Below, piece after piece: positions 2,174 through 61,917 of a stretch of DNA of 64,000 bases; positions within the stretch are counted from its first letter, which is position 1, and the number at the start of each line of letters is the position of its first letter. Under the pieces are notes generated by a model. The model did not search any database. It had not been told where the DNA came from and was given only the letters and a program-made list of their open reading frames with translations. This stretch comes from Heliocidaris erythrogramma (lineage: Eukaryota > Echinodermata > Echinoidea > Camarodonta > Echinometridae): contig CM046856.1 in assembly GCA_025617745.1 (NCBI GenBank), positions 32,916,208 to 32,980,207 on the forward strand, in the 5' to 3' direction. The position numbers and the translations under genes are program-made.

Positions 2174-2344
2174 TTAAACCTCATAATTTTGAATGACTGA
2201 GTTGATAAAGTCAATGAATTGAGAGACTCTGGTGTATACTCCAGGGTTGTTCGGACGTGCACACCCGTTGCCAAAACTTGTAATTCCGACAAGATGCCAT
2301 CTACCGTCTGTACCTTCACACATCAAAGGACCTCCACTATCACC
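2174..2344 (-). CDS. Serine protease 2, exon d (Ser195) and stop
   Basis: 171 bp beginning [16 protein letters not shown] with the catalytic Ser, then [16 protein letters not shown] and [11 protein letters not shown] followed by TAA at 2174-2176. This is the C-terminus of the protein. No canonical AATAAA is seen close downstream; a dispersed repeat begins about 20 bases after the stop. Confidence 0.93.

Positions 2345-61917: not shown

Follow-up and report, generated by a model that had tools for sequence, protein, structure and literature searches.

A single open reading frame of 3,700 codons, distributed over 53 exons on the minus strand (61917 to 2174) of the window (the whole stretch of 64,000 nucleotides of Heliocidaris erythrogramma DNA analysed in this work), was found to join the domains of a giant putative membrane protease in the order TM, SEA, ten HYR, SEA, eleven HYR plus a truncated HYR, LDLa, protease (SP1), Fz, a set of CUB and LDLa modules, Fz, protease (SP2) and stop (Table 1). 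The coding sequence of our own exon model comprises 11,103 nt, its sole stop is its last codon, neither a stop nor a frameshift occurs within the 3,700 codons, and the computed mass of the product is about 393 kDa before glycosylation, with 63 N-glycosylation sequons across the whole chain. The first-pass annotation had described 54 exons in one frame and a protein of ~3,650 residues; the one giant open frame with these domains is confirmed, the exon count becomes 53 (the optional 36-nt exon possibly being the 54th) and the length is corrected to 3,700 residues. The domain order that it had given was borne out by a Pfam search of our exon model, to which the truncated HYR is added as a 22nd. 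The parts of the predicted protein thus look real and intact. We infer that a single transcript covers all 53 exons, and the placement of all parts in one chain, encoded by one gene, is given a probability slightly better than even (about 55%); only RNA can show whether these parts form one protein or two.

The exon model was obtained by exon finding with a small gene finder, followed by manual building from domain and splice evidence, whereby 18 of the exons proposed by the gene finder (among them those in LINE, Asp-repeat and Ile-repeat tracts) were dropped and others were re-cut. The gene finder served for exon finding only: with default and self-trained splice matrices it merged the whole strand into a single 72-exon gene, masking of the LINE and of the end repeats lowered this to 66 exons, gene ends are not properly modelled by it, and it added spurious exons in repeats. 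One of its exons, at 6773-6941, was rejected, being a repeat array whose open frame is rich in Asp; the window has long arrays of TGATGA and ATC type at positions 416-1242 and 6773-6941. The 52 introns of the final model measure between 201 and 7,687 bp (median 611), 51 being GT-AG and one GC-AG (after HYR15, to whose exon this donor belongs), and 43 of the 52 are in phase 1, as is usual where extracellular domains have been shuffled. The splice scores given below derive from matrices trained on the window's own gene model. A search of Rfam gave no match.

Table 1. Features of the predicted gene (window positions; exons are listed in the order of the coding strand)
Feature	Exons	Span	Strand	Basis
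First exon (TM, candidate)		61506..61917	-	Start codon, ~110-residue K/R-rich cytoplasmic tail, predicted type II TM segment, phase-1 donor
Optional 36-nt in-frame exon between TM and SEA1		59061..59096	-	Splice scores 3.4, 3.5; phase 1-1
SEA1	57786-57674, 56787-56720, 56292-56051	56051..57786	-	Pfam SEA 1.7e-13
Thr/Pro-rich linker exon		55615..55689	-	Gene model
HYR1-HYR5, one exon each	53342-53106, 52711-52472, 52004-51765, 51563-51327, 49776-49540		-	Pfam HYR
HYR6-HYR10, one exon each	48868-48644, 47887-47651, 47074-46829, 46359-46117, 45670-45428		-	Pfam HYR
HYR1-HYR10 block		45428..53342	-	Each above Pfam HYR cut-off
SEA2	44732-44617, 43968-43907, 43526-43351	43351..44732	-	Pfam SEA 5.6e-7
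HYR11-HYR16	42941-42696, 41463-41221, 40564-40322, 39806-39561, 38932-38690, 38406-38164	38164..42941	-	Pfam HYR
HYR17-HYR20	30476-30225, 29744-29502, 28579-28328, 27934-27692	27692..30476	-	Pfam HYR
HYRx (truncated HYR, in frame)		27050..27214	-	Pfam HYR 2.9e-5; one cysteine
HYR21		26122..26358	-	Pfam HYR 5.5e-10; phase-1 donor
HYR21-LDLa1 junction		24875..26121	-	Intron of 1,247 bp or, with two genes, intergenic gap
LDLa1		24752..24874	-	Pfam LDLa 9.4e-10
SP1	24015-23820, 23501-23224, 22722-22583, 21971-21794	21794..24015	-	Pfam Trypsin 8.1e-55
Fz1	20396-20161, 19532-19418	19418..20396	-	Pfam Fz 1.5e-13; 10 cysteines
CUB1 (divergent)	19012-18656	18656..19012	-	No Pfam match; CUB fold by AlphaFold model
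LDLa2-LDLa4	17358-17230, 14808-14680, 14232-14113	14113..17358	-	Pfam LDLa, 3 stretches
CUB2, CUB3	13594-13247, 12088-11738	11738..13594	-	Pfam CUB, 2 stretches, 3.7e-25
LDLa5, LDLa6 (4 cysteines)	10935-10819, 10491-10402	10402..10935	-	Pfam LDLa, 2 stretches
CUB4		9602..9967	-	Pfam CUB 2.4e-9
LDLa7 (4 cysteines), LDLa8	8579-8484, 7958-7851	7851..8579	-	Pfam LDLa, 2 stretches
Fz2	single exon	7158..7514	-	Pfam Fz 2.2e-17; 10 cysteines
SP2	6359-6167, 5688-5429, 2830-2691, 2344-2174	2174..6359	-	Pfam Trypsin 1.8e-61

The claim of two proteases was sustained, both being apparently intact: SP1 and SP2 each retain H57, D102 and S195 together with an R↓IVGG activation site, and cysteines are found in both at the places expected for a disulfide between the pro-peptide and the catalytic domain. 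Upon alignment to plasma kallikrein, the pocket of SP2 contains D189 and G226 and is trypsin-like, and from these residues SP2 should cut after Arg or Lys; the pocket of SP1 contains S189, I190 and D226, with a six-residue insertion before 226. A trypsin mutant in which the charge was moved to 226 is described as cutting after basic residues with a preference for Lys, a fiddler crab collagenase with D226 as cutting after several kinds of residue, and Asp226 is a P1-Arg determinant of factor B by the title of a reference in the same paper (PMC7914634). In view of these precedents for D226 with a neutral residue 189, the preference of SP1 probably differs from that of SP2, and by analogy SP1 probably prefers Lys or other residues. 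Where the domain ends, the last exon of SP1 carries a phase-1 donor, and that of SP2 has the stop codon with no donor before it, so that SP1 looks internal and SP2 terminal. Among solved structures the nearest proteases are plasma kallikrein and then others, including enteropeptidase and matriptase, and a search of NCBIfam with SP1 gave no match. Between SP2b and SP2c, a degenerate and frame-disrupted copy of the SP2c exon lies on the minus strand at 3165-3060.

All domain kinds proposed by the first-pass annotation (SEA, HYR, LDLa, Trypsin, Fz and CUB) were matched by Pfam, CUB1 alone giving no match at E values up to 0.5. The AlphaFold model of CUB1 (pLDDT 83), for which the alignment consisted of the other three CUBs of the window and thereby leans the result towards CUB, matches mostly CUB structures, e.g. 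those of neuropilin and TSG-6. Six cysteines are present in six of the eight LDLa modules. Both SEA domains carry an autoproteolysis-type motif, QG↓SVIV at residues 199-203 in SEA1 and NG↓SILA in SEA2, and their exon phases are identical. The 21 HYR domains claimed earlier were all recovered, each full HYR exon scoring above Pfam's curated cut-off and each full HYR having two cysteines. The dN/dS ratio was 0.10-0.53 in all 16 nearest HYR-HYR pairs computed, which indicates coding constraint. HYR11 pairs with HYR14 (79%) and HYR18 with HYR20 (80%), while HYR12, 13, 15 and 16 form one group (80-89%); HYR11-HYR16 and HYR17-HYR20 are block duplications. Skipping of the truncated HYRx leaves the frame intact and its splice sites look intact, which suggests a decaying or tolerated exon.

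Relatives of these parts were sought in the assembly that contains the window (1.06 Gb, 26 contigs). Modules of Fz and protease (Fz-SP) were located at C4:38.60-38.61M, C5:44.73-44.77M and C6:6.47-6.48M, and seven protease units were counted in the 200 kb around these three loci, most with CUB, LDLa and Fz before and CUB behind. These modules share with the window the order CUB, LDLa, Fz, SP and the four-exon protease, and have more domains after the protease. In six of the seven units, the last exon of the paralogous protease closes the domain with a phase-1 donor (with a phase-0 donor in the other), and the CUB exons downstream have acceptors in matching phase (4/4 looked at). To this local Fz-SP family SP1 is more distant (36-44%) than SP2 (46-51%); in the protease tree, most of which is unresolved, SP1 has a long branch, and the S195 codon, TCT in SP1 as opposed to AGT in SP2 and 6/7 paralogues, fits a separate origin of SP1. 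On C5, four Fz-type protease units within about 40 kb (G000:C5:44727377-44767107, L041-L045) probably constitute a polyprotease; its first unit, where Thr replaces Ser195 (GDTGGP), may be inactive.

In the 200 kb around the three Fz-SP loci no HYR was found with a model trained on the HYRs of the window (which recovered 8/8 foreign HYR loci used as control, all from one C12 array), and SEA was likewise not found there. Among three scored candidates the SEA1c exon had one relative (49%), on C2, where two SEA exons and one HYR exon lie within 4 kb (L050); the nearest to this HYR exon, among the best 150 of 1,517 candidates scored, were HYR5 (52%), HYR7 and HYR1 of the window. Among the matches listed (149 of 220, 143 of 167 and 129 of 279 candidates scored), none to LDLa or protease lay near this C2 locus and none was a retrocopy revealing splicing. 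A genome search with the SEA family (40/40 candidates scored) gave 11 matches without recovering the SEA domains of the window itself, whose coding sequence is interrupted by introns, and hence says nothing on absence; a corresponding HYR search, covering the best 150 of 1,993 candidates, had one window HYR among the matches listed, and such partial coverage cannot exclude another HYR-protease gene.

Several known systems resemble the predicted protein in part. Matriptase has the order SEA, two CUB, four LDLa and one protease, enteropeptidase has MAM and SRCR domains with CUB/LDLa, corin has a type II anchor, two Fz, several LDLa and a C-terminal protease after an Fz-LDLa stem, and sea urchin hyalin is an extraembryonic matrix protein with long HYR arrays. 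With matriptase and enteropeptidase the window protein shares a SEA stem, CUB and LDLa modules and an S1A protease; neither of these enzymes is known to have HYR or Fz domains and each has one protease, whereas HYR arrays, Fz domains and two proteases occur in the window protein. MAM and SRCR gave no Pfam match in it (for SRCR, a domain which also marks corin beside its protease, at E values up to 0.5). As in corin, two Fz and LDLa modules stand before a protease; unlike corin, SP1 here precedes Fz1, and SEA, HYR, CUB and a second protease are present. For insect corin, Fz, LDL(2) and SRCR are described (PMC11172050). The stem modules of TTSPs (SEA, LDLa, CUB or Fz) were found by Pfam, the C-terminal S1A protease SP2, with R↓IVGG and the H-D-S triad, ends the frame, and the N-terminal TM segment would be provided by a candidate exon, which has a rival first exon. 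Polyserase-1/TMPRSS9 is similar in its type II anchor, LDLa and more than one S1A protease per chain, and differs in having three tandem proteases, with HYR, SEA, CUB and Fz not named in its description (PMC1435904); the polyserase feature of at least two S1A domains per chain would be favoured here by the one open frame and by the donor pattern of the paralogues. The likeness in parts to corin, enteropeptidase, matriptase and polyserases which the first-pass annotation had drawn is supported.

Its statement that no described member has an HYR array was too strong. The sea urchin protein EBR1_5 (Sp-Ebr1_5, SPU_006534), of 1,243 residues, is described as consisting of TM, SEA and seven HYRs, with reported positive selection, and is called a putative egg receptor (PMC5521101); HYR is also given among the accessory domains of astacin metalloproteases (PMC9848320). 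The N-terminal half of the window protein has the TM, SEA and HYR-array plan of EBR1_5-like proteins, its TM exon being a candidate, and differs, in a comparison by description only, in that no second SEA, LDLa, CUB, Fz or protease is mentioned for EBR1_5 (PMC5521101). Hyalin, mentioned in PMC9382459, is alike in its long HYR arrays and different in that no protease is mentioned for it there. Among the open-access papers listed in literature searches, none describes an HYR array with a trypsin-type protease. Both halves have kin, and the parts are less unprecedented than was first held. Among the systems compared, the closest working analogue appears to be HrTTSP-1 of Halocynthia roretzi, a 337-kDa sperm type II protein which binds the egg coat; it resembles the window protein as a very large type II protein with a long repeat stalk and a protease, whereas its stalk is made of 23 EGF and two ricin-B domains and its protease is single and C-terminal (PMC9265791). 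HrOvochymase, which processes an egg-coat protein, has three proteases and five CUBs, and several S1A proteases alternate with CUBs in one chain; it has a signal peptide and no anchor, and Fz, LDLa, SEA and HYR are not named for it (PMC9265791). The ovochymase plan is that of a secreted chain with proteases and CUBs only; LDLa, Fz, SEA and HYR are present here in addition.

Considering that the fusion of neighbouring genes is described as a known source of error in predicted architectures (PMC3927609), the one-chain claim is marked as unproven, and considering that each half has relatives in which the other is apparently absent, two neighbouring genes are a serious rival to it. According to this rival, which we regard as somewhat unlikely, two adjacent genes on the same strand meet at the HYR21-LDLa1 junction, namely an EBR1_5-like gene (TM-SEA-HYR-SEA-HYR) and a polyprotease (LDLa-SP-Fz-CUB/LDLa-Fz-SP), secreted or separately anchored. 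The description of EBR1_5 without a protease (PMC5521101), the C2 locus without LDLa or protease nearby among the matches listed and the Fz-SP modules without HYR in the 200 kb around their three loci all speak for it, as TM-SEA-HYR may stand alone; moreover, if HYR21 is read through, a stop is reached after some 30 codons at most, and two poly(A)-type motifs follow HYR21 at 26053 and 26012, about the chance estimate in such AT-rich DNA. Against it, the second gene would have to start inside the first, and neither half would be complete, the anchored one having no protease and the protease one neither anchor nor signal. A strict scan found no secretory first exon in the 1,247-bp gap, a relaxed scan found one weak candidate with marginal hydrophobicity and a weak donor, and only three ATG reading frames in the gap end in a usable phase-1 GT, so that a convincing secretory start belonging to LDLa1-SP1 itself is missing; since these scans yielded 39 (strict) and 74 (relaxed) candidates over 48,641 bp of introns, this near-absence is mild evidence. 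In addition, the donor of HYR21 (score 2.7) and the acceptor of LDLa1 (3.2) match in phase. Forcing a break at this junction costs the gene finder 13.9 units, the 9th lowest of 52 introns, and as this lies within the range of introns inside single domains it neither supports nor excludes a gene break. If the break is placed after SP1 instead, a one-protease type II enzyme on an HYR stalk would be followed by an Fz-CUB/LDLa-Fz-SP2 gene; such a division accords with the position of LDLa-SP1 immediately behind the stem, as is usual in type II proteases, with the greater distance of SP1 than of SP2 from the local Fz-SP family, and with a weak signal-peptide-like exon (21647-21560) in the SP1-Fz1 intron. 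It is nonetheless improbable, since the phase-1 donor at the boundary of SP1 is as in six of the seven paralogous units followed by CUB, and a forced break there costs 19.0 (29th of 52); proteases inside a longer chain look normal in the Fz-protease family, which supports continuity from SP1 to Fz1.

The N-terminus bears on the one-gene and the two-gene readings alike. Two candidate first exons with a membrane segment lie 5' of SEA1. The TM exon, one of them, has an open frame with an in-frame stop upstream and encodes 10 K/R within the 19 residues preceding a hydrophobic stretch of at least 19 residues, a charge pattern expected of a type II anchor, and the type II character proposed at first is thereby supported. 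It has no relative elsewhere in the genome (3/3 candidates scored), and the TM-SEA1 break cost of 8.2, the lowest of the 52 introns, makes the TM-SEA1 join the weakest link of the model. A secreted protein would result if translation began at 59169, the signal sequence encoded there being cleaved off, and if the gene did not include the 61917 exon, the coding model being otherwise right: the exon 59169-59061 (the optional exon plus upstream sequence) encodes a 36-residue hydrophobic N-terminus and has a good phase-1 donor (3.5), and the gene finder by itself takes part of it (59096-59061) and not the 61917 exon. This hydrophobic stretch, however, has no charged N-region and sits at the expected T-rich end of an intron, with an acceptor score of 3.4 at 59096; it may thus be such an intron end before the 36-nt exon, or a true signal sequence. 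As the 61917 exon has its K/R cluster and EBR1_5 is described with a TM domain (PMC5521101), the secreted form is considered unlikely. An assembly error or a decaying gene is very improbable: although the HYR16-HYR17 intron harbours a LINE and a 170-bp tandem array, and a truncated HYR and a broken spare SP exon also occur, the frame is uninterrupted, dN/dS is below 0.6 in the 16 HYR pairs, and HYR21, beyond the LINE, has as its closest relative HYR4, before it (among the best 150 of 1,113 genome-wide candidates scored), so that the array ends belong together across the LINE insertion. To judge by sequence, this likeness ties the array ends to each other and not the array to the protease.

If the one-gene reading is right, the product would be a type II transmembrane polyprotease of about 393 kDa (unglycosylated) with a cytoplasmic N-terminus, in which about 21 HYRs would form a long glycosylated stalk that sets the proteases far from the membrane. 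The cell-surface protease on an HYR stalk envisaged by the first-pass annotation thus stands as to its domains and frame, the union of all parts in one chain being the unproven portion. The SEA domain of matriptase is described as cleaving itself at G149↓S150, its halves staying together (PMC5567652); the juxtamembrane SEA1 and, within the HYR array, SEA2 would probably self-cleave likewise at G↓S and stay non-covalently joined, and with two such sites the stalk could part under force or be shed. The distal cargo would comprise SP1 with LDLa1, then Fz1, the CUBs and LDLas, Fz2 and SP2; SP1 and SP2 would be zymogens cut after Arg at R↓IVGG, each kept attached by the disulfide to its pro-peptide, and HYR, CUB, LDLa and Fz domains may bind partners and present substrates. 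For the role, of which adhesion, egg coat and immunity had been suggested by inference, the likeness to EBR1_5, HrTTSP-1 and HrOvochymase makes the egg or gamete surface our best guess, EBR1_5 in particular leaning that way. That one chain combines an EBR1_5-like egg-surface stalk with two active proteases of different S1 pockets and with two SEA break points is judged a little short of an even chance. Were this fusion true, a receptor of the gamete-recognition type would itself be a membrane-tethered protease of two specificities. One chain would also join an HYR stalk like that of the putative egg receptor EBR1_5 (PMC5521101) to trypsin-type enzymes, so that editing of the gamete coat by a recognition receptor could be tested directly. 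With one chain, the size range of type II proteases would moreover reach about 3,700 residues, and their repertoire would gain an HYR stalk and an S189/D226 pocket. Two genes, conversely, would place an EBR1_5-like gene and a polyprotease in a tight neighbourhood and still leave a local family of Fz-protease modules.

Other elements were observed in the window and in the genome. The LINE (30865-35948, minus strand) has two long open frames, one of 1,236 residues with endonuclease, reverse transcriptase and RNase H (Pfam) and one of 459 residues without a Pfam match, and no target-site duplication of at least 9 bases was seen in the stretches compared. Beside it are the tandem array of about seven 170-bp units (36658-37846) and an adjoining short GGAC array (37854-37925). 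Just upstream of the gene, a THAP zinc-finger domain (5e-10) is encoded on the minus strand at 62660-62953, which suggests a neighbour gene or a transposon remnant. On C12 (G000:C12:2713738-2785824), about 100 HYR matches (of 113 rows) with a spacing of ~440 bp over 72 kb form a giant HYR array. On C4, HYR matches of equal score recur in pairs separated by about 410 kb (G000:C4:31.66-31.73M and 32.07-32.16M), suggesting a recent segmental duplication or an uncollapsed haplotype; HYR matches are paired in a similar way on C20, near 27.18M and 27.43M.
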